Shown: one piece after another, positions 2,857 through 17,262 of the stretch
Layout of the letters: every line of letters begins with the position of its first letter
Numbering within the stretch: the first letter of the stretch is position 1
Assembly: GCF_008086205.1 (NCBI RefSeq)
Contig: NZ_VSKK01000001.1
Location: 62,001-126,000 of the forward strand
From: Bizionia myxarmorum
Lineage (GTDB): Bacteria; Bacteroidota; Bacteroidia; Flavobacteriales; Flavobacteriaceae
Direction of reading: 5' to 3'
Length of the DNA: 64,000 bases
Program-made: the position numbers and the translations under genes
Notes under the pieces: model-generated
The model's database searches: none
The model's input: the letters and a program-made list of their open reading frames with translations, nothing else
What the model was told of the DNA's origin: nothing

Positions 2857-3708
2857 TTATTGTATTCCGTTTAAAATATGTTTAATGTAATTTGTATTGG
2901 CCATTTCATCATGAATTTTCTCATAATTATCCGATTCTAAATGATTTTTAAAATTGGTTAAATTCTGAATATACGCATCTAAAGTTTCCAATACATTCGT
3001 TTTATTTTGTTTAAAAATGGGAGTCCACATAGCGGGTGAACTTTTAGCTAATCGCACCGTTGATGCAAATCCGCTACCTGCCATATCAAAAATATCGCAT
3101 TCATTCTTTGCTTTTTCAATCACCGTTTTCCCGAGCATAAATGCGCTGATATGTGATAAATGCGACACATAAGCAATATGTTTATCATGCGCTTCCGGAT
3201 TCATATACCGAATGCGCATACCCATAATTTGAAAAATAGCCAATGCGCGTTCTTGCAATTTGAAAGCCGTTTTTTCCACTTCACAAATAATATTTGTTTT
3301 TCCTTGAAACAAACCTTCCAAAGCTGCTTTTGGTCCTGAAAACTCCGTTCCTGCAATAGGATGTGTTGCTAAAAAATTCCGACGTTTCGGGTGATTTTCA
3401 ACTGCTTTACAAATAGCTGCTTTTGTAGAGCCGGCTTCCATTACCAACGTATCTTCATTTACTAAATCTAAAATATTTGGCAATATGCTAACGGTTGCAT
3501 CCACAGGAATAGCGATAATTACGGCATCTGCATTCTTCAAATCCGTAAAAGTAGCTTTAGCATCAATAATTTTAAGCGTTAAAGCTTCATCTAAATGCGC
3601 GTTATTAGAATCTATTCCATAAATAATGAGGTCCGGATTTAAATGTCTAATGTCTTTAGCAATGCTTCCGCCAATTAATCCAACGCCTATAATGTATATA
3701 TTTTTCAT
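2857..3708 (-). CDS. tyrA: Prephenate dehydrogenase
   Basis: This 283-residue NAD-dependent enzyme converts prephenate to 4-hydroxyphenylpyruvate. The Rossmann motif GVGLIGGS is at the very N-terminus, and the family motifs THPIAGTE and HDKHIAYVSHLSH are both present. I chose the ATG at 3708 (MKNIYIIGVG) because it starts directly at the beta-strand and leaves 22 nt to the aminotransferase stop; an upstream ATG at 3744 would overlap that gene and add 12 unrelated residues. No C-terminal ACT domain is seen, so tyrosine feedback on this protein is not evident. Confidence 0.95.
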   Translation of the reverse strand: MKNIYIIGVGLIGGSIAKDIRHLNPDLIIYGIDSNNAHLDEALTLKIIDAKATFTDLKNADAVIIAIPVDATVSILPNILDLVNEDTLVMEAGSTKAAICKAVENHPKRRNFLATHPIAGTEFSGPKAALEGLFQGKTNIICEVEKTAFKLQERALAIFQIMGMRIRYMNPEAHDKHIAYVSHLSHISAFMLGKTVIEKAKNECDIFDMAGSGFASTVRLAKSSPAMWTPIFKQNKTNVLETLDAYIQNLTNFKNHLESDNYEKIHDEMANTNYIKHILNGIQ

Positions 3709-3730
3709 TTCGTTTTTAACTTTTTCAGAC

Positions 3731-4873
3731 TTACACTCTGGCAATAGCTTCTTCTATAACTTCTGTTGTTGCACATAATGAAAACCTGACATAACCTTCG
3801 CCATTACTACCAAATATGGTTCCTGGTGCTATAAATATGTTGCTTTCTTTTAATAATAAATCAATAAATTCTTCAGATTTTAGATAGGGCGGTAATTTGG
3901 CCCAAACAAACATGCCACTGGTGTTTTTGTCAAAAGTACAATTAAGAGCATCTGCTAACTTCCAAATGAGTTCCCGTCTTTCTTCATAAACCTGGTTCAA
4001 ACTTGCGTACCATAATTTGGAACAACTCAAAGCTTGAATTGCCGCTTTTTGTATACCAAACAACATTCCAGAATCCATATTACTTTTTACTTTTAAAATG
4101 GCGTTGATATATTCAGACTTTCCGAGTACCATGCCAACGCGCCAACCAGACATATTAAACGTTTTACTCAAAGAGTTCAACTCCAAACAAACTTCTTTGG
4201 CACCCTGAATTTGCAAAATACTTTTAGGCTCCTTATTTAAAACAAAACTGTACGGATTATCATTTATAATTAAAATATTATGACGTTTTGCAAAAGCAAT
4301 GAGCTTTACAAAAAAAGCCTCGGGAGCATTCGTACCAGTTGGCATATGCGGATAATTAACCCACATAATTTTAACTTTAGATAAATCTGTTTTTTCTAAA
4401 ACTTCCAAATTTATGAGCCAATCGGATTCTGCCGTTAAATCATAAAAAACAGGTTCTGCTCCTACTAGTTTGGTAACGGATGTGTAGGTTGGATACCCAG
4501 GATTTGGAATCAAAACCTGATCGTCTGGATTTAAAAAAGCCAATGAAATATGCATAATCCCTTCCTTGCTTCCCATTAATGGTAAAACTTCCGTAGAAGA
4601 GCTCATGAAAACACCATATTGCTCGCGATAAAAATTCACAATAGCTTCCCGAAACTCTGGTAAACCTTGATAACTTTGATATTGATTGGCTTTTGGATGT
4701 GAGAAACTTTCTGTTAAAGCCTCAATAACTTTTTTTGGCGGATTTAAATCCGGACTTCCAATGCCTAAATTTATAATAGGCTTCCCATTTGCCATGAGTA
4801 ATCCCACTTCTCGTAATTTTTTCGAAAAGTAGTATTCCTCTACAGTCTGTAAACGATTGGCTAATTCAATCAT
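3731..4873 (-). CDS. PLP-dependent class I/II aminotransferase (aromatic or aspartate type)
   Basis: This 380-residue fold-type I aminotransferase has the Schiff-base lysine in SLSKTFNMSGWRVG and the NPGYPTY and VNYPHMPTGTN substrate and cofactor loops. It lies between pheA and tyrA, so it most likely transaminates phenylpyruvate and 4-hydroxyphenylpyruvate with glutamate, the last step of phenylalanine and tyrosine synthesis. That substrate assignment is inferred from context; sequence alone would also allow aspartate or LL-diaminopimelate activity. Its start overlaps the pheA stop by one base (TAATG), giving translational coupling. Confidence 0.88.
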   Translation of the reverse strand: MIELANRLQTVEEYYFSKKLREVGLLMANGKPIINLGIGSPDLNPPKKVIEALTESFSHPKANQYQSYQGLPEFREAIVNFYREQYGVFMSSSTEVLPLMGSKEGIMHISLAFLNPDDQVLIPNPGYPTYTSVTKLVGAEPVFYDLTAESDWLINLEVLEKTDLSKVKIMWVNYPHMPTGTNAPEAFFVKLIAFAKRHNILIINDNPYSFVLNKEPKSILQIQGAKEVCLELNSLSKTFNMSGWRVGMVLGKSEYINAILKVKSNMDSGMLFGIQKAAIQALSCSKLWYASLNQVYEERRELIWKLADALNCTFDKNTSGMFVWAKLPPYLKSEEFIDLLLKESNIFIAPGTIFGSNGEGYVRFSLCATTEVIEEAIARV

Positions 4874-5697
4874 TATTTTGCGTTTTTGTATTGACCTAAA
4901 ATTTTAAATTCTTCGGCCATGATTTCTAATATAGATTGGGCTTTTTTAAAGTTGCTGTAGTTATCAAAAGTGACATCCACAAAAAAAGCATACTTCCATG
5001 GGGTTTGTATTTTTGGAAGCGATTGTATTTTGGTTAAATTCAGCTGACAATCGCTCATCACATTTAAAATAGTCGCTAAACTGCCGCGTTTGTGTTCTAA
5101 CTCAAATTTTAAAGATGCTTTATTAATGTCTGCTTCTTCAAAATCTTGATTTTCACGTTTTACAATTACAAAGCGCGTCTCGTTTTGTTTGATAGTTTGG
5201 ATACTTTCTGCCAGAATTTCCAGCTCAAATAAATTAGCCGCTAATTGACTTCCAATGGCTGCAACACCTTTAAGCTTTTGCTTTTGAATACGCTGCGCAA
5301 CTTCCGCCGTATCTTTATCTTCAATGAGTTTAATATGTGGCTGCTTTTTAAAAAAAGCCTTGCATTGCAATAATGCCATAGGATGCGAATATACTTCCGA
5401 AATATCCTGAATTTGTTGTCCTGGCAAAGCCATAAAATGGTGCTGAATATCTAAATAACGTTCACCCACAATATGTAATTGGTGGTTGTCTATTAAAGCA
5501 TAATTGGGGATTATAGAACCTGCAATAGAATTTTCAAGCGCCATAACAACCGCGTCCGAAGTCTCATTTAGCAGCTGCTTAACAACGTCATCAAATGATA
5601 AACATTCAATGAGTTCCACGGTATCTCCAAAATACTGCTGGGCAGCAATATGATGAAATGACCCTTTTATTCCCTGTATGGCGATTGCCTTTTTCAT
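4873..5697 (-). CDS. pheA: Prephenate dehydratase
   Basis: The 274-residue enzyme decarboxylates and dehydrates prephenate to phenylpyruvate. The N-terminal periplasmic-binding-like catalytic domain begins IQGIKGSFHHIAAQQYF and ends with the conserved TRF in NETRFVIV. An ACT domain follows from about residue 198 (FELEHKRGSLATIL). The classic ACT ESRP phenylalanine-binding motif reads QSLP here (KIQSLPKIQTPWKYAFF), so allosteric phenylalanine binding may differ from the enterobacterial enzyme. It is the first structural gene after the attenuator. It is a stand-alone dehydratase because the mutase is fused to the DAHP synthase instead. Confidence 0.95.
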   Translation of the reverse strand: MKKAIAIQGIKGSFHHIAAQQYFGDTVELIECLSFDDVVKQLLNETSDAVVMALENSIAGSIIPNYALIDNHQLHIVGERYLDIQHHFMALPGQQIQDISEVYSHPMALLQCKAFFKKQPHIKLIEDKDTAEVAQRIQKQKLKGVAAIGSQLAANLFELEILAESIQTIKQNETRFVIVKRENQDFEEADINKASLKFELEHKRGSLATILNVMSDCQLNLTKIQSLPKIQTPWKYAFFVDVTFDNYSNFKKAQSILEIMAEEFKILGQYKNAK

Positions 5698-5741
5698 GCC
5701 TTTATTATTTTAAAAACGTTTCAAACCAAACTATTACAAAC

Positions 5742-5771
5742 AAAAAAAGTCCCGATTTTCATCGAGACTTT
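5742..5771 (-). terminator. Attenuator terminator in the pheA leader
   Basis: On the minus strand an 11-bp stem (arms 5746-5756 and 5761-5771, one G-U pair, 4-nt loop) is followed at once by seven T residues (5748 down to 5742). It ends 45 nt before the pheA start and lies after the leader peptide stop. This is the position of an attenuator and not of a terminator for an upstream gene. Confidence 0.88.
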
Positions 5772-5800
5772 ATATATAGTTTAATTTTATCAATCAAAAA

Positions 5801-5881
5801 TTACACATACGAGGTCTCGTTTCTTTCGTTAAAAAAGAAATAACACCAATTGTGATATGCGTTTTGTATACTTGTGTTCAT
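5801..5881 (-). CDS. Aromatic-rich leader peptide of the pheA operon (attenuation)
   Basis: A 26-codon ORF runs from the ATG at 5881 to the TAA at 5801-5803. Seven of its 26 residues are aromatic: Tyr9, Trp12, Tyr14, Phe15, Phe16, Phe17 and Tyr25, with the run YFFF encoded TAT TTC TTT TTT. Codons 21-23 carry CGAGAC (5819 to 5814), which is the exact complement of GTCTCG in the 5' arm of the downstream terminator. A ribosome stalled at the YFFF run would leave this segment free to form an antiterminator. A ribosome reaching the stop codon would cover it and let the terminator form. This is the layout of a phenylalanine/tyrosine-type attenuation leader. Regulation is inferred, not measured. Confidence 0.85.
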   Translation of the reverse strand: MNTSIQNAYHNWCYFFFNERNETSYV

Positions 5882-5892
5882 AATTTGAACGG

Positions 5893-5922
5893 CTAAAGTA
5901 GTTAATAATTTGAAAAAACAAA
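5893..5922 (-). promoter_or_regulatory. Probable promoter of the pheA operon
   Basis: On the minus strand TTTG (5922-5919) is separated by 18 nt from TACTTTAG (5900-5893), one base off the Bacteroidota -7 consensus TANNTTTG. Transcription would start near 5886, only a few bases before the leader-peptide ATG at 5881, so nearly the whole leader RNA is attenuator. Confidence 0.6.
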
Positions 5923-6008: not shown

Positions 6009-6923
6009 ATGTCTATTGAAGTTGAAAACATCAGCAAATTATACGGCTCTCAAAAAGCGTTAAACAACATTTCTTTTAAGGTAAATAAACCTGAAATTGT
6101 CGGTTTTCTTGGTCCAAATGGCGCTGGAAAATCAACGATGATGAAAATTTTAACCACGTTTATTGAAGCTTCTGAAGGCCATGCTAAAGTAAATGGTTTT
6201 GATGTAAATTTAGACAAGCAAAAGGTGCAGCAAAGTGTTGGTTATTTGCCAGAACATAATCCATTGTATTTGGATCAATATGTTAGAGAATATCTTGGTT
6301 TTAACGCAGCTATTTACGGTGTTGATTCCAAGCGTATTGATGACGTTATTAAATTAACAGGGATAACGCCAGAAGCTCATAAAAAAATTGGTCAACTTTC
6401 CAAAGGATACAGACAACGCGTAGGTTTGGCAAATGCTTTATTACATAATCCCGATGTATTGATTTTAGATGAACCGACTACGGGTTTAGATCCGAATCAG
6501 TTAGTGGAAATTCGTAATTTAATTAAAAGTATAGGTAAGGAAAAAACGGTATTTCTTTCTACCCATATTATGCAGGAAGTGGAAGCGATGTGCGACCGTG
6601 TGATTATTATTAGTAAAGGTGAAATTGTAGCCAATAAAACCTTGAAAGAATTGCGCGACGACAAGGAACAAGTGGTTCTTGTAGAGTTTGATTATCGTGT
6701 AGAAATAATTTTTCTTGAGAAATTACCACACGTTAAAGAAGTAGTAAATATCCATGATTTTGTTTATGAAATTACCTTTGCAACTTCAGAAGATATGCGT
6801 TCTCATGTTTTTGATTTCGCTCATGATAATGAATTAAAAATCCTGCAATTAAATCAGAAAAACGCGAGTTTGGAAAGTTTGTTTCGGGAATTAACGGCTG
6901 ATACGAAAGCTATTCAAGAATAA
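6009..6923 (+). CDS. gldA: Gliding-motility-type ABC transporter ATP-binding protein GldA
   Basis: This 304-residue ABC ATPase has P-loop GPNGAGKST at 35-43, the ABC signature LSKGYRQR at 130-137 and Walker B LILDEP at 151-156, followed by a C-terminal DUF4162-like tail. The start MSIEVENISKLYGSQKAL and the YLPEHNPLYLDQYVREYL segment are characteristic of GldA, the ATPase partner of GldF/GldG in the flavobacterial gliding-associated exporter. No gldF or gldG is nearby, as is common because gldA is often unlinked. The 3' end overlaps the convergent GIN-domain gene by 14 nt. Confidence 0.9.
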   Translation: MSIEVENISKLYGSQKALNNISFKVNKPEIVGFLGPNGAGKSTMMKILTTFIEASEGHAKVNGFDVNLDKQKVQQSVGYLPEHNPLYLDQYVREYLGFNAAIYGVDSKRIDDVIKLTGITPEAHKKIGQLSKGYRQRVGLANALLHNPDVLILDEPTTGLDPNQLVEIRNLIKSIGKEKTVFLSTHIMQEVEAMCDRVIIISKGEIVANKTLKELRDDKEQVVLVEFDYRVEIIFLEKLPHVKEVVNIHDFVYEITFATSEDMRSHVFDFAHDNELKILQLNQKNASLESLFRELTADTKAIQE

Positions 6924-10211: not shown

Positions 10212-13200
10212 TTAATTGGTGTTTTTCGCCAATCTCAAAATATCACCAAAAACGCCTCGTGCTGTCACATTTTTTCCAGCGCCAGCGCCTTGAATAACCA
10301 AAGGTCTTTCGCCATAGGATTCTGTAAATATTTCAAAAATAGCATCCGATCCTTTTAAAGACCCGAGTGTCGAATTTTTAGGTACAGAAACTAATTGCAC
10401 ATCTAATTGACCTTTACTTTGAAATAAATCGCCAGACAAATCACCAATATATCTCAAAACATGATCTGGTTTTTGTTCTTCCTTTTTATGTTGAAATGTT
10501 TCATTTAAATCTGACAAATTCTCCAAAAACTGTGAAGCTGAAATATCTCTAAACTCTTTAGGAATTAAATTTTCTATATGAATGTCTTCAAATTCATTTT
10601 CTAAATCTAACTCACGTGCCAGAATCAATAATTTCCGAGCCACATCGTTTCCACACAAATCTTCGCGGGGATCTGGTTCTGTATAACCTTGATCAATAGC
10701 TTCCTGTAAAATCTCTGGAAACGGTCTGTTTTCCGAAGAAAAGGCATTAAACAAATAACTTAAAGATCCCGAAAAAATACCGCGGACACGTGTAATATTT
10801 TCACCAGACTCGTGTAACAATTTAATCGTGTCAATTAAAGGCAATCCCGCACCAACGTTGGTTTCATATAAATATTCCTTTTTGTTTTGAACTAATTTTT
10901 CTCTCAACGTTTTATAAAAACTAAAAGAAACAGTATTGGCAATTTTGTTAGATGATACTAAATCAAAACCAGCTTCTACTAAAGGTATATAATTCTCAAT
11001 AAAATCAGTATTAGCGGTATTATCCACCGCTATCAGATTTTCTAAATGGTGTTTTTCAGCATAGTCAATAATCGCTTGAGCAGACGTATTGGGAATACCA
11101 TTGGTTTCTAAATTTTGTTTCCAATTTTGGTCTATTCCTTTTTGATTTAATAGAACCTGTTTAGAATTTGCAATGGCAAAAACGCGCAGTTGAATGTTTC
11201 TACGCTTTAATATAGATTCCGCATTTTCTAAAATTTGATTAATTAAGGTACCGCCAACCAAGCCTTTCCCAAAGATGGCAATGTTTATTTTTTTTGCGAC
11301 CCCAAATACTTGTCCATGAATAACGTTTAACGCTTTATGCAAGTGATTCTTCTTAACCACTATACTTACATTTTTCCGCGAAATCGTGTTATTGAATAAT
11401 AACGGAACTATGTGGTTTTTTATGAGCGCATTATAAGGCTGATGAAATTTGCTCAAATCCAATCCAATAATAGAAATGACTGAAACATCATCAATAATGG
11501 AGATTTTATGGACGTCTTTGGTGTAAAAGTCGTTTTCAAACTCCTGCTCCAGAGCAGCCACCGCATCCTTTGCACGATTGGCAGCCACCATAAAACCAAT
11601 GCCACGTTCCGATGATCCTTGCGCAATAATACTCACACTAATATGATGAATACTCAACGTTTTAAAAATTCTAGCATCTACTCCTATTTTTCCTAGAAGT
11701 CCGCGGCCTTCAAAATTAATAAGCGACACATTATCTAGAACTGAAAGCGATTTAATGCCTTCAACAGTTGTTTTTGAAGTGATTAAAGTGCCTTTATCCT
11801 CTGGATTAAAGGTGTTTAAAATTCGCAGATTGATGTTTTTTTCAATAAGCGGCACAATGGTTTTAGCATGTAAAATGGTCATTCCGAAATTGGCTAACTC
11901 ATTGGCTTCACTATAAGATAATTGCTCTATCTTCTTGGCATCTGCTACTAAATCTGGATTGGCTGTATAAATTCCATTTACGTGTGTGTAACTTTGTAAC
12001 TCTTCAGCATCTAAATAATTCGCCAATAAAGAGGCTGTATAATTACTTCCATTACGTCCTAAAGTAGTGGTTTGGTTTTTTAAATTGGAAGCAATAAATC
12101 CGGATACAATATGAACCGTTTCCCTATTATATTTTTCGAAATGTGCTTTTACATTTTGCTCTGAAATAGCTAAAATGGGTTGCGCATCTCCAAAATTGGC
12201 ATCTGTTTTTATGAGAAGCCTGGCATCTGTGGCATGTGCTTTTATTCCGCGTTCCATTAATAATTGCGCGACGATTTTTGTTGCTAGTAATTCGCCTTGC
12301 GCCAAAACTTCATCTTTAATTTTTTCACTATAATCTTCCAATAAGCTTACGCCTTCTAAAAGGGTGTCTAATTTTGAAAATTCTGCAGAAAAATCAACTG
12401 ATTTTAAAGGTTCAGTTTGATAGGTTTTAAAAGCCTCTAATGCTTCTTTATATGCTTTATTAGTTGCTGCTTTTTCAAGAATAGCCTCTAATTCATTGGT
12501 CGCATTTCCTCTGGCAGAAACAACAACCGCCATATTTTGTTTGTCTTTTACTTTGGACTCTATAATAGAGAGAACTGTTTTCAAGCCGTTTCCGTTTGCT
12601 AAAGATTTTCCTCCAAATTTTAATATTTTCATGTTCTTTCGTTTTGTTTCAGGTTTAAAAATTCCTGAAATAATTTTTTCTAATTGATCAAATTCTATCA
12701 AAAATGCATCGTGACCGTGAATAGAATGGATTTCATTATAGGTGACATTCGGGTTTGTTAATGCCAGTTGTTTTTGTGTTTCTCGATTTTCTTCGGCTGT
12801 AAAAAACAAATCTGAATCCACACCGATAATATAGATGTTGGCTTGAATGTTATCTAAAACAGCTAAACTATGTTCCCCTCCATTGGTAACGTCAATTGTT
12901 TTTAGCAATTGATTCATGAGTTTATAGGACGCCAATTGGTAGCGTTCTTGTAATTTTTTACCGTGATGCATCAACCAACTTTCCACATTAAAAATTTGTA
13001 AATTGGTATTTTTAGTTCGTTGAAAGCGTTCTTTAAATGAAGCTGGCGTTCTATAACATAACATAGCATGCATCCTGGCATCATGAACCGGATTACTAGA
13101 ATTAACGAGAAACTGCTCTTGAATTTGGCAGTTTGCAATAAGCCAATCCGTCGCTTTCCAATCAGTTGCTACAGGAATAAAATGGATTGCTAAATCTGGT

Positions 13201-13610
13201 TTTACGGCTAACATTTCCCAAGCAATTCCACCTCCTAATGAGCCGCCAATAATAGCAAATAACGTATCTATTTGAAGTGCTTTTAAACCCCATAAAAAAA
13301 GATTTGCAATATCCTTTGCAATGAAACTTTTGTAGTCTTTAATGATAACATCATCATACCCGTTTCCAGGAATATTAAAAGCTAGAATCGTATAGAAATT
13401 AGTATCGATCGCTTTGTTCGTTCCAATAAGGTCTTTCCACCAACCTTCTTCACCTGACACATTACTATTTCCTGTTAACGCATGATTAACAAGCACAATT
13501 GGCGCGGCGCCCAAAGGTTTACCAAACAGTTGGTAAGACAATTTTAATGAAATTGTCTTACCGCTAACTGTGGTAAAGTTTGAAATAGGAATAAACTTTA
13601 GTTTCGACAT
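10212..13610 (-). CDS. Trifunctional homoserine O-acetyltransferase / aspartate kinase / homoserine dehydrogenase
   Basis: The 1132-residue protein has three parts. Residues 1 to about 325 form a MetX-like alpha/beta hydrolase with nucleophile Ser124 in GGSLGG, an aspartate in GVDSDLFF (265-267) and His300 in HGHDAF. Residues 327 to about 770 form an aspartokinase (MKILKFGGKSLANGNG) with ACT-like regulatory repeats. Residues from about 773 (INIAIFGKGLVGG) form homoserine dehydrogenase. It would catalyse the first, third and homoserine-activating steps of methionine synthesis in one chain. The junction has an in-frame Met327, so internal initiation is conceivable. It starts 3 nt after the OsmC-like gene in the SAM-I-controlled operon. 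A ThrA/MetL-type enzyme without MetX would be near 800 residues. Confidence 0.93.
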   Translation of the reverse strand: MSKLKFIPISNFTTVSGKTISLKLSYQLFGKPLGAAPIVLVNHALTGNSNVSGEEGWWKDLIGTNKAIDTNFYTILAFNIPGNGYDDVIIKDYKSFIAKDIANLFLWGLKALQIDTLFAIIGGSLGGGIAWEMLAVKPDLAIHFIPVATDWKATDWLIANCQIQEQFLVNSSNPVHDARMHAMLCYRTPASFKERFQRTKNTNLQIFNVESWLMHHGKKLQERYQLASYKLMNQLLKTIDVTNGGEHSLAVLDNIQANIYIIGVDSDLFFTAEENRETQKQLALTNPNVTYNEIHSIHGHDAFLIEFDQLEKIISGIFKPETKRKNMKILKFGGKSLANGNGLKTVLSIIESKVKDKQNMAVVVSARGNATNELEAILEKAATNKAYKEALEAFKTYQTEPLKSVDFSAEFSKLDTLLEGVSLLEDYSEKIKDEVLAQGELLATKIVAQLLMERGIKAHATDARLLIKTDANFGDAQPILAISEQNVKAHFEKYNRETVHIVSGFIASNLKNQTTTLGRNGSNYTASLLANYLDAEELQSYTHVNGIYTANPDLVADAKKIEQLSYSEANELANFGMTILHAKTIVPLIEKNINLRILNTFNPEDKGTLITSKTTVEGIKSLSVLDNVSLINFEGRGLLGKIGVDARIFKTLSIHHISVSIIAQGSSERGIGFMVAANRAKDAVAALEQEFENDFYTKDVHKISIIDDVSVISIIGLDLSKFHQPYNALIKNHIVPLLFNNTISRKNVSIVVKKNHLHKALNVIHGQVFGVAKKINIAIFGKGLVGGTLINQILENAESILKRRNIQLRVFAIANSKQVLLNQKGIDQNWKQNLETNGIPNTSAQAIIDYAEKHHLENLIAVDNTANTDFIENYIPLVEAGFDLVSSNKIANTVSFSFYKTLREKLVQNKKEYLYETNVGAGLPLIDTIKLLHESGENITRVRGIFSGSLSYLFNAFSSENRPFPEILQEAIDQGYTEPDPREDLCGNDVARKLLILARELDLENEFEDIHIENLIPKEFRDISASQFLENLSDLNETFQHKKEEQKPDHVLRYIGDLSGDLFQSKGQLDVQLVSVPKNSTLGSLKGSDAIFEIFTESYGERPLVIQGAGAGKNVTARGVFGDILRLAKNTN

Positions 13611-14073: not shown

Positions 14074-15381
14074 CTAGACGTTAGTTTCATTTTGCAAAAC
14101 CGTTTCAGTAACTATTTTGAATGTTGCTTTTAAATCGGCTTTTAAGTCGTCTATATTTTCAATACCAACCGACAGTCTGATTAAATCTTGAGAAACACCT
14201 GCACTTGCTTGAGATGCTTCATCTAATTGTTGATGAGTGGTACTAGCAGGGTGAATAATTAATGATTTGGTATCACCAATATTAGCGAGTAAGGAAAATA
14301 TCTTGGTGTTATCAGCTATGGTTTTAGCGGCCTCAAAACCACCTTCCACGCCAAAAGTAACCATCCCGCTTTGTCCATTTGGCAAGTACTTTTTAGCCAA
14401 TTCATGGTATGCACTCGTTTCTAAACCAGGATAATTTACCCACGTAACTTCAGGCTGCTCTTGTAACCATTTGGCTAGTTCCAAAGCATTTTCACTATGT
14501 TTTTTAATCCGAATTTCTAACGTTTCTAAACCTTGAATAATATTAAAAGCGTTTGTTGGACTAATGGCACCACCATAATCACGTAATCCTTCTAAAATTA
14601 ATTTGAAAGTATAAGCAGCGGCACCCAAAGCGTCATGATAAACCAAACCATGATAACCTGCGGAAGGTTCTGTAAATTCCGGAAATTTCCCACTGGACCA
14701 ATCAAAATTTTCTCCATCAATAATAGCGCCTCCTAATGATGTGCCTTGTCCGCCAATATATTTTGTCAAGGAATGAATAACAATATTTGCACCGTGTTTA
14801 ATAGGATTTAATAAGGCTGGTGTTGCAACGGTATTATCCACAATAAAAGGGACTCTTGCTGCTTTTGAATGTTTTGAGATAGCTTCTAAATCCAATACAT
14901 CTAACTTCGGATTCCCTAAAGATTCTACAAAAAATGCTCTGGTGTTTTCTTGAACCGCTGCTGCAAAATTATCAGGATTGGAAGCATCCACGAATGTGGT
15001 TGTAATACCTAGTCGTGGTAAAGTAACATTCAATAAATTATAGGTTCCACCGTACAAACTACTAGCGGCAACAATATGATCGCCTGCTTTTAAAAACGTT
15101 AGCAATCCTGTGGAAATAGCAGACATTCCTGAAGCGAAAACCACGGCTCCGATGCCGCCTTCAACAGCGGCTAAACGGTCTTGTAAAATTTGATTGGTGG
15201 GATTGTTTAATCTCGTGTAGATAAACCCTAATTCTTTTAAAGAAAAAAGATTGGCTGCATGTTCCGAATTATTGAAAACATAGGATGTAGATTGGTAAAT
15301 TGGCACGGCACGTGTACCGCCGTTTTTTGTCACATCGTGACCTGCATGCAACGCTCTGGTTGCGAAATTTTGAATACTCAT
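14074..15381 (-). CDS. metY: O-acetylhomoserine sulfhydrylase
   Basis: This 435-residue Cys/Met-metabolism PLP enzyme has the Schiff-base lysine in HSLTKYIGGQGTSLGG and the long-form architecture of O-acetylhomoserine (thiol)-lyase, longer than MetB/MetC at about 380. It uses sulphide and O-acetylhomoserine to form homocysteine. Its substrate is made by the MetX domain encoded two genes downstream. The gene follows a SAM-I riboswitch in its 5' leader (15505-15645), which fits repression of the operon when SAM is abundant. Confidence 0.95.
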   Translation of the reverse strand: MSIQNFATRALHAGHDVTKNGGTRAVPIYQSTSYVFNNSEHAANLFSLKELGFIYTRLNNPTNQILQDRLAAVEGGIGAVVFASGMSAISTGLLTFLKAGDHIVAASSLYGGTYNLLNVTLPRLGITTTFVDASNPDNFAAAVQENTRAFFVESLGNPKLDVLDLEAISKHSKAARVPFIVDNTVATPALLNPIKHGANIVIHSLTKYIGGQGTSLGGAIIDGENFDWSSGKFPEFTEPSAGYHGLVYHDALGAAAYTFKLILEGLRDYGGAISPTNAFNIIQGLETLEIRIKKHSENALELAKWLQEQPEVTWVNYPGLETSAYHELAKKYLPNGQSGMVTFGVEGGFEAAKTIADNTKIFSLLANIGDTKSLIIHPASTTHQQLDEASQASAGVSQDLIRLSVGIENIDDLKADLKATFKIVTETVLQNETNV

Positions 15382-15500: not shown

Positions 15501-15504
15501 TTGC

Positions 15505-15645
15505 GTTATCTATCCAATTTTTAATAAATGAATTAAAAATTAAGTAGAATGTAGCACCTTCTTAAATTTGAGATTCCTGCTTCCGCAGGTATTTAAGGGT
15601 TGCTAAGGCTTCAACGGGTCTAATCCCTTCACCTTTCTTGATAAC
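15505..15645 (-). ncRNA. SAM-I (S-box) riboswitch upstream of metY
   Basis: Read on the minus strand, the RNA has the S-box core: GTTATCAAGAAAGGTGAAGG, then GACCCGTTGAAGCC, TTAGCAACC and AAGGTGCTACATTC. P1 is GTTATC (15645-15640) with GATAAC (15510-15505). P2 is AAGG with CCTT. P3 is CTTAAAT with ATTTAAG, closed by CCTGC-GGAA-GCAGG. P4 is a 10-bp AT stem just before the 3' arm of P1. All four helices around the SAM pocket are accounted for. It should turn off the metY, OsmC and MetX-AK-HSD operon when SAM is high. A near-consensus -7 (TATTTTG, 15667-15661) lies just upstream. Confidence 0.93.
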
Positions 15646-15760
15646 ATTTTCGGAATATTACAAAATACTCCTTCAGTAAATTTTTGAACTTTGTGAGCAC
15701 AAATATTGCAACACAAATGTTTATAAACCAAATTAAATGTGAAAAAAAGTCTAAAAAATG

Positions 15761-15788: not shown

Positions 15789-15801
15789 CAAAGTAATATT
15801 A

Positions 15802-15915
15802 AAGAGGAAAAATTTGTCTGATTGCAACCTCTTCAAACCATTGGCTTTCGCTTAAATGCTGCCGGATTTGGATTGAAATTAAATGCTAAAGCAGTTTTAT
15901 TCTACTACTCTAGCA
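15802..15915 (+). ncRNA. Structured metK leader, candidate SAM-II-like riboswitch
   Basis: AAGAGG (15802-15807) pairs with CCTCTT (15828-15833). The loop reads AATTTG, TCTG, ATTGCA, resembling loop 1 of SAM-II (AUUUG, P2 arm, UUGCA). Downstream, AAATTAAATGCTAAA then GCAG resembles the SAM-II L3 element ending in GCUAAA and the P2 3' arm, but here the pseudoknot would be only about 3 bp (CTG with CAG). Between them is an extra hairpin (TTCAA-CCA arms near 15832-15840 with TGG-TTGAA near 15868-15877, and an inner TTGGC-GCCGG stem). TGCTA at 15884-15888 can alternatively pair with TAGCA at 15911-15915, a possible switch helix. The metK context supports SAM sensing; the class is my inference. Confidence 0.5.
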
Positions 15916-15972: not shown

Positions 15973-17262
15973 ATGCCCTATTTATTTACTTCAGAAAGTG
16001 TTTCTGAAGGCCATCCAGATAAAATTGCCGATCAAATAAGTGACGCATTAATTGATAATTTTTTAGCTTTTGATCCCGAATCAAAAGTAGCTTGTGAAAC
16101 GCTTGTAACAACTGGTCAAGTTGTATTGGCAGGTGAAGTAAAATCTAAAACCTACCTAGACGTTCAGAAAATTGCTCGTGATACCATTAACAAAATTGGC
16201 TACACTAAAGGTGCTTATATGTTTGATGGTAGTTCGTGTGGTGTGTTTTCAGCTATTCACGAACAATCCGAAGATATTAATCGCGGAGTAGATCGTGAAA
16301 GCAAAGAAGAACAGGGTGCCGGCGATCAAGGTATGATGTTCGGTTATGCGACCAATGAAACTGACAATTATATGCCATTGGCATTAGATTTGTCTCACCG
16401 ATTATTATTGGAATTAGCAGAAATACGCCGAGAAAACAAAGACATTATGTATTTACGCCCGGATTCAAAAAGTCAGGTAACTATTGAATATAGCGATGAT
16501 AATGTGCCGCAACGTATTGAAGCCATTGTGGTTTCAACTCAACACGACGAATTTGTTTTACCGAAATCTCAATCCAAAGAAGATAAAAATGTAGCTGAAG
16601 AAGAAATGGTTGCAAAAATCAACAAGGATATTAAAGAGATTTTAATTCCGCGTGTGATTGCTAAATTACCAGAACATATTCAAGTATTGTTTACGGATAA
16701 TATTAAATACCATATCAACCCAACTGGGAAATTTGTTATTGGTGGACCACATGGTGATACGGGCTTAACAGGTCGTAAAATTATTGTGGATACTTATGGT
16801 GGAAAAGGTGCTCATGGTGGTGGTGCTTTTTCAGGAAAAGATCCAAGTAAGGTAGATAGAAGTGGTGCTTATGCAACTCGACATATTGCTAAAAATTTGG
16901 TTGCTGCAGGTGTTTGTAGTGAAGTACTTGTGCAAGTGAGTTATGCTATTGGCGTTGCTGAACCAACCTCAATTTATGTAGATACCTATGGAAGTTGTCC
17001 GTTTAACATGACCGATGGCGAAATAGCAACCAAAGTGAAAGAGATTTTTGATATGCGACCATTTGCTATTGAAAAACGTTTAAACCTGCGTCAGCCTATG
17101 TACAGCGAAACTGCGGCTTATGGCCATATGGGTCGTAAAAATGAAACCGTGAGCAAAACCTTTGAGCAATTTTATGGCGGCCCAATAACTATGGATGTTG
17201 AATTGTTTACTTGGGAAAAATTAAATTATGTGGATGATATAAAAGCAGCTTTTGGGTTGTAA
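15973..17262 (+). CDS. metK: S-adenosylmethionine synthetase
   Basis: The 429-residue enzyme makes SAM from methionine and ATP. Family motifs are intact: [19 protein letters not shown] at the N-terminus, [12 protein letters not shown] in the middle, and [17 protein letters not shown] with the glycine-rich [16 protein letters not shown] loop. The acidic linker near residues 195-212 ([14 protein letters not shown]) makes it longer than the E. coli enzyme (384), as is usual in Bacteroidota. It is divergent from the methionine operon and has its own structured leader. Confidence 0.97.

Follow-up and report, generated by a model that had tools for sequence, protein, structure and literature searches.

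A probable ribosome-mediated attenuator upstream of pheA in Bizionia myxarmorum, with related leaders in Bacteroidota

Organization of the pheA locus

The window analysed here is a 64,000-nucleotide stretch of the Bizionia myxarmorum genome. Near one end of it, the minus strand carries a pheA gene preceded by a promoter-like site, a short leader open reading frame (ORF) and a terminator-like stem-loop (Table 1), which together occupy the gap between pheA and the divergent gldA. The genes pheA, aminotransferase, tyrA and DAHP synthase/chorismate mutase form a set that covers the Phe and Tyr branches and the common entry step, on which Trp synthesis draws as well, and strand and spacing suggest that all four are read on one transcript. 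The PheA of the window shares 31% identity with the dehydratase portion of Escherichia coli PheA, and its closest named relative is the PheA of Bizionia echini, at 80% identity.

Table 1 Features of the pheA locus and its surroundings in the window
Feature	Position	Strand	Sequence or basis
Promoter-like site, Bacteroidota type	5893–5921	−	TTG at 5921–5919, which we take to be the −33 element; 18-nt spacer; TACTTTAG at 5900–5893
Leader ORF, 26 sense codons and TAA	5801–5881	−	MNTSIQNAYHNWCYFFFNERNETSYV; ATG at 5881, stop ends at 5801
Control codons Y14 F15 F16 F17, core of region 1	5831–5842	−	TATTTCTTTTTT; aromatic run conserved
Protector hairpin 1:2, predicted	5795–5866	−	Computed leader fold
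Region 2, 5′ arm of the putative antiterminator, codons 21–23	5814–5819	−	CGAGAC; complementary to 5768–5763
Terminator stem-loop 3:4	5746–5771	−	AAAGTCTCGAT GAAA ATCGGGACTTT; region 3 is GTCTCG, 5768–5763
T-rich tract	5736–5745	−	TTTTGTTTGT, 3′ of the terminator stem
pheA, prephenate dehydratase, first gene after the leader	4873–5697	−	NCBIfam PRK11898, E 8e-59, under the curated cut-off; PF00800 match
Class I aminotransferase, second gene	3731–4873	−	Profile scan, which leaves the exact family unsettled
tyrA, prephenate dehydrogenase	2857–3744	−	NCBIfam PRK08507, above cut-off
DAHP synthase/chorismate mutase fusion, common aromatic pathway	1674–2756	−	Several profile matches, all under curated cut-offs
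gldA, divergent	6009–6923	+	

The leader peptide contains seven aromatic residues (Y9, W12, Y14, F15, F16, F17 and Y25), among them a YFFF run and all three aromatic types, and our recount on the minus strand agrees with a preliminary description of the locus, which leaves the strand unstated, in this and in the length of 26 codons. That description also placed a segment exactly complementary to the 5′ arm of the terminator in codons 21–23, about four codons past the Phe run; CGAGAC indeed begins 11 nt past the last Phe codon and matches GTCTCG throughout. The same source called the terminator a perfect stem. The stem of 11 bp and the T-tract are there, and one of the pairs is a G-U (T-G) wobble, so that the stem is not strictly perfect. 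The pheA ATG sits 47 nt past the hairpin. In the computed fold, region 1 holds region 2: the Phe codons pair with a purine-rich spacer in an inner stem (5840–5833 with 5827–5820), an outer stem joins 5860–5852 to 5810–5803, and region 2 is partly paired with 5847–5842.

The hairpin by itself is unremarkable, because 0.7 terminator-like sites are expected after shuffling the 1.2-kb region, and the YFFF run alone proves nothing, because such codon runs are common genome-wide (108 matches, against 127 in a backwards control).

Leaders across the Flavobacteriaceae

The preliminary description proposed a comparison across the Flavobacteriaceae, and all four features, namely the leader ORF, its aromatic codons, the complement and the terminator, proved to be kept, in the family and beyond. 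We surveyed 120 genomes from 119 genera, nearly all one per genus, of which 107 gave a PheA match in a single-protein search. A leader was defined as an ATG ORF with at least four aromatic residues in six codons, no more than 500 nt upstream of pheA. By this definition 103 of the 107 pheA genes have a leader within 500 nt and a hairpin with a T-rich tail between leader and pheA; the tail in these 103 is present by construction, as the terminator search required it, and the hairpins are products of a consensus search, not measured terminators. With at least five aromatic residues in six codons, 99 of the 107 pheA loci still qualify, as does 1 of 83 control regions taken from ahead of hisG, trpE and ilvD (originally 84; the ilvD locus L306, at a contig end and without upstream DNA, was dropped). 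At four in six, 14 of the 83 control regions qualify, and 11 of these 14 belong to trpE. Median length among the 103 peptides is 25 residues, with 10 aromatics; Phe and Tyr occur in every one, and Trp as well in 73.

One further leader, at L018 in genome G012, lies just past the 500-nt limit and was recognized by a covariance-model match; tandem repeats of about 120 nt separate this attenuator from pheA (L018/L399). Three of the 107 genera have no leader upstream of pheA: at L081 pheA follows close behind another ORF, L090 lies at a contig end with only 376 nt of upstream DNA, and L098 contains repeats. Among the named Flavobacteriaceae loci, leader and terminator are found at 79 of 80, a count that includes L204, where the script chose the wrong upstream ORF and the true leader is visible (this locus was omitted from the swap test described below). 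L176 is the only one of the 80 scored as leaderless. An ORF at L176 is repeat-like and similar to the G012 repeats. At L003, L007, L008, L030 and others, the T-tract runs into the pheA ATG, and a translational effect may occur there.

The covariance model was built from 46 rows of Flavobacteriaceae, so that matches in those genomes are not independent. Its E-values are rough. Nine of its matches away from pheA were inspected (L394–L398 and L400–L403), and only two, L395 and L396, have leaders; the remaining seven look like plain terminators, including L394 with an E-value of 1.4e-5.

Alternative pairings of leader and terminator

Relatedness inflates counts over genera, and two comparisons, a sister swap and a test at the level of families, were designed to lessen the effect of kinship. 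In the swap, region 2 was matched to its own terminator arm and to that of its nearest relative in 62 disjoint pairs with different arm text; the own partner was better in 29, worse in 4 and tied in 29 (sign test, 1e-5), many of the ties coming from arms that differ only in their trimmed ends and were nevertheless counted as different. When each of 20 families is represented by a single locus, the own partner exceeds the median of the foreign partners in 19. At L337 (family f48) region 2 fails the complement test, and the choice of leader there looks wrong. The co-variation anticipated in the preliminary description is thus borne out, in that the complement changes along with the terminator, as in the region 2/3 pairs CGAGAC/GTCTCG, GGGACT/AGTCCC, CAGGGCTTT/AAAGTCCTG, CCGGGTT/AACCCGG and GAGCGGTC/GACCGCTC.

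In 93 of the 103 leaders, the distance from the last aromatic codon to the start of region 2 is 9–12 nt. The match of region 2 to its own terminator 5′ arm beats 95% of shuffles in 81 and misses p < 0.05 in 22, with L028, L044 and L085 no better than chance; the sequences point to an antiterminator pairing in the set overall, with these three loci failing. In an alignment of 198 sequences, 97.6% of the cells of the terminator arms (3:4) pair, against 88.6% after shuffling, and the gain for the 2:3 cells is modest (74.7% against 68.6%), some rows being one column off register. RNAalifold gives little covariation on close alignments: both sides change in only 1 of 20 predicted pairs in the close alignment A2, and in 5 of 10 in alignment A3.

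The leaders fold more stably than dinucleotide shuffles, with a mean z of −3.0 over 103 genera and values below −1 in 96 of them; the window's own leader scores −1.9. At least half of region 2 is paired with region 1 in the predicted fold of 96 of 102 leaders. In 97 of 103, region 2 lies between −18 and +13 nt relative to the stop codon, a position that a ribosome at the stop could reach by geometry, given a typical ribosome footprint. The sequence elements expected of the attenuator class are all found: a leader ORF rich in codons for the product, a terminator, an antiterminator (2:3), a protector (1:2) and a fitting ribosome geometry.

Promoter and 5′ end

The TACTTTAG box differs at one position from TAnnTTTG, the −7 consensus named in passages of a Flavobacterium psychrophilum transcriptome study (PMC9723704), and ends 11 nt 5′ of the leader ATG. 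From this promoter-like site, transcription probably starts just upstream of 5881. A strict scan found the promoter consensus in 10 of 102 genera (0.45 expected); only after that scan was the consensus relaxed, to TTG-N18-21-TAnnTTTG with one mismatch allowed in TTTG and no more than 90 nt from the leader ATG, and in this form it occurs in 74 of 102 genera against 4.8 expected from shuffling. The relaxed site lies most often 10 or 16–19 nt ahead of the ATG. Because this arrangement is so frequent, a short 5′ untranslated region is plausible, and so is the earlier suggestion that the leader starts close to the 5′ end of the RNA.

Leaders of other amino acid operons

Similar leaders precede other biosynthetic genes in the family, and the attenuator reading given in the preliminary description is supported with an amended scope, pheA being one of a set. 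A His-rich leader with a terminator stands before hisG at 27 of 28 loci, where at least three His stand in seven codons, a density reached in 1 of 161 upstream regions elsewhere, and a Trp-rich leader with a terminator stands before trpE at 29 of 30 (at least two Trp in seven codons; 6 of 159 other regions). Before ilvD, runs of six Ile, Leu or Val in seven codons occur at 13 of 25 loci, against 3 of 164 elsewhere; with five in seven the counts are 20 of 25 and 36 of 164. These figures come from L247–L304 for hisG and trpE and from L305–L330, without L306, for ilvD. Among the runs are HHHH before hisG and NTWWWN before trpE. In the window's own genome, MTFIQSHHHHFHTCTQAG precedes hisG and MNTILNHTWWWNNRNSKFVI precedes trpE (L274 and L282 are its own hisG and trpE loci), and ilvD gave no match.

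When the terminator 5′ arm alone is the target, none of the 27 his and none of the 29 trp leaders has a complement at p < 0.05. With arm and loop as target the counts are 18 of 27 for his and 3 of 29 for trp, and with the whole terminator 17 of 27 and 16 of 29. The pairing here is weaker evidence than at pheA, because the target was enlarged after the sequences had been seen. In the trpE leader, the segment TCGTGA is complementary to the loop and 3′ arm of the terminator, whereas at pheA the 5′ arm is used.

Sensor residues and gene content

Thirteen of the 120 family genomes have no PheA match in the single-protein search, and all 13 also have no match to prephenate dehydrogenase (PF02153), which was found in the window's genome and in 14 of 14 control genomes. 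The leader codons have switched in several of these genera, which amounts to a natural experiment in what is being sensed. In twelve of the 13 a close DAHP synthase/chorismate mutase gene was found; one of these (L421 in G100) was excluded, as a contig end leaves no DNA upstream of it, and 11 upstream regions remain readable. In 7 of the 11 (L406, L407, L408, L409, L411, L412 and L419), a leader, a terminator and a complement lie directly before the DAHP synthase gene. Their peptides hold SNFWWHH, CNWWLQ, IRWRHS, KAWWHM, TIWWYI, LYWWHP and NTWWSN, the one at L408 having a single Trp. WW is thus found in six of the seven and FF in none, the opposite of the pheA leaders, where WW is found in none and FF in 96 of 103. 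Shuffle p-values for the seven complements range from 0.003 to 0.13, four being below 0.05. The other four readable regions (G083, G038, G039 and G048) show no leader upstream of DAHP synthase. The DAHP-synthase tree is poorly resolved, and the seven Trp-type leaders may stem from few codon-switch events.

A different switch is seen in G039, which has neither a PheA match nor tyrA. Here the leader MKNLNNTYYYYPILTRRIGQ, with a Tyr run (NTYYYYP; L396, C4:189593-189726), precedes a phenylalanine-4-hydroxylase-like gene, together with a terminator and a complement. PF00351, surveyed in 60 genomes, matched three short genes strongly (in G003, G057 and G039), of which only that of G039 has a leader; none was found before those of G003 and G057 (L436).

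Distribution beyond the family

In other orders of the class, an aromatic-run leader is present at 34 of the 48 pheA loci examined (13 of 23 and 21 of 25), a set in which a few genera recur and the leader or terminator is doubtful at four of the 21. The terminators at L336, L350 and L351 are doubtful. In other families of the order, 8 of 21 scored loci have a leader, two more having been dropped because the match lies at a contig end. Counting the window's own, leaders occur in 20 families. Among the loci sampled, none was found in families f2, f13, f21, f24, f25, f53, f62, f73 and f77; f2 has another kind of PheA, the f77 loci all come from 0.6-Mb genomes and f13 is represented by seven loci. 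Loci outside the family were collected by PheA or PDT similarity and form a sample rather than a census, a one-protein search of the class having matched 58 of 197 genomes.

Proposed mechanism and its alternatives

We consider it highly probable that the locus works as a transcription attenuator operated by the ribosome, with charged tRNAs for Phe, Tyr and Trp as the signal that is sensed; stalling, termination and the response to amino acids are what we infer from the sequences. Polymerase would start a short way upstream of 5881, with a ribosome entering the leader at once. With plentiful aromatic aminoacyl-tRNAs, the ribosome would reach the stop codon and cover CGAGAC, the 3:4 stem would form and transcription would stop before pheA. 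Under scarcity it would stall in the Tyr, Trp and Phe codons, covering region 1 and leaving region 2 free; CGAGAC could then pair with GTCTCG, the terminator would be blocked and the operon from pheA through the aminotransferase and tyrA to DAHP synthase would be read. If the leader were not translated, the 1:2 hairpin would keep region 2 and the terminator would form.

Two other ways of using the same leader and hairpin seem very unlikely. One is arrest-peptide control of the TnaC kind, in which the nascent leader peptide, with free Phe, Tyr or Trp, stalls the ribosome, so that the peptide and not the supply of codons is the sensor. A conserved aromatic run and the likeness of peptides within one clade (YFFFSKRNE) would suit it; the sequence outside the run, however, is highly variable, the residues past the run track the RNA complement of the terminator, and the sensor residues become WW or YYYY with the downstream gene, as sensing of codon supply predicts. 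Arrest induced by the product would, moreover, activate the operon at high product levels. Equally little credence can be given to a hairpin that acts chiefly on the initiation of pheA translation and not on transcription. The pheA ATG does lie no more than 12 nt past the hairpin in 32 of 83 genera with an assignable start, as such an effect would need, but that distance is far exceeded in the window, where the stem is followed by TTTTGTTTGT; the T-rich tails elsewhere, being a requirement of the search, do not count as evidence.

Attenuation by codon supply also has to be set against readings without a ribosome-driven switch, which are barely credible. A regulatory link might be lacking altogether, the terminator merely standing beside an aromatic ORF that arose by chance in AT-rich DNA; the 14 of 83 control genes that pass at four in six might raise this suspicion, but the near absence of control regions at five in six, the co-change with the terminator, the protector fold and the codon switch all speak against it, and conservation refutes a chance ORF. 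A metabolite riboswitch or T-box before pheA fares no better: the window does contain other cis-regulatory RNAs, namely SAM and SAM-II riboswitches, but what is conserved here are codons and mutually exclusive pairings, and neither a whole-window Rfam scan nor a permissive scan of the locus placed a T-box or known riboswitch at the locus at gathering score.

Relation to known attenuators

Attenuation was reportedly surveyed by Lopatovskaya et al. in 2010. One near counterpart is E. coli pheL-pheA, which served as a control for the layout and with which the locus shares, by eye, a Phe-rich leader peptide, a terminator before pheA and a segment complementary to a terminator arm. In pheL, region 2 follows the stop codon, whereas here it lies mostly inside the leader ORF; the leaders here mix Phe with Tyr and often Trp, the operon adds tyrA and DAHP synthase, and the promoter is of the Bacteroidota type. 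Leaders of trp and his operons follow the same logic with other codons, and the candidates with terminators found in this genome and family resemble them. The top Rfam match at the locus is a weak one to RF01859 (Phe_leader), at 26.6 bits where the gathering score is 55 (E 0.016, searching 311 bases), and by score the locus is not a member of that family. Annotation based on Rfam would miss the attenuator, because no model reaches its cut-off here; the alignments from this analysis could seed a model of that type.

The idea that the locus might be a new member of the attenuators in Bacteroidota is supported, with the proviso that a pheA 5′ element had already been described in 2021. Passages of that study, the F. 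psychrophilum transcriptome (PMC9723704), report structured 5′ elements without Rfam hits before pheA and hisG, note that both are also present in other Flavobacteriaceae genera and mention ‘strong clues’ of leader-peptide attenuation upstream of amino acid operons. The pheA element described there shares its position and gene with the attenuator of the window; our named loci cover Flavobacterium species other than F. psychrophilum. The main-text section of PMC9723704 gives no pheA leader sequence, antiterminator or covariation, and what is added here is the antiterminator and its joint change with the terminator, the occurrence of leaders in other families and the switch of sensor codons. Among the open-access papers examined, PMC9723704 alone names a pheA element in Bacteroidota, and passages of PMC4833913, PMC8305728, PMC7366714 and PMC1262725 contain none.

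A pheA attenuator of this kind would account for how Bacteroidota control aromatic synthesis. Classical attenuation requires a ribosome close behind the polymerase and a prompt start on the leader. We lean slightly towards the broader view that attenuation is an old and general form of amino acid control in Bacteroidota, given pheA leaders in 20 sampled families and those of hisG, trpE and ilvD in Flavobacteriaceae. It would operate without Shine–Dalgarno initiation and with very short 5′ untranslated regions, and would imply tight coupling of transcription and translation. The aromatic sensor would have been retuned in evolution: where pheA and tyrA were lost, DAHP synthase often has a tandem-Trp leader, and one phenylalanine-hydroxylase-like gene has a Tyr-run leader. 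The presence of the pheA attenuator across many families would offer a direct way to probe transcription–translation coupling in Bacteroidota.

Other features of the window

The two riboswitches of the window belong to two classes and stand back to back. A SAM (S-box) riboswitch (15503–15647, minus strand) precedes an O-acetylhomoserine sulfhydrylase-like gene (14074–15381, minus strand), and a SAM-II riboswitch (15798–15899, plus strand) precedes a metK-like gene (15973–17262, plus strand), the gene names coming from reading the sequence. Further along the minus strand, a single ORF of 1132 amino acids (10212–13610) seems to join a MetX-like acyltransferase part to an aspartokinase/homoserine dehydrogenase part.
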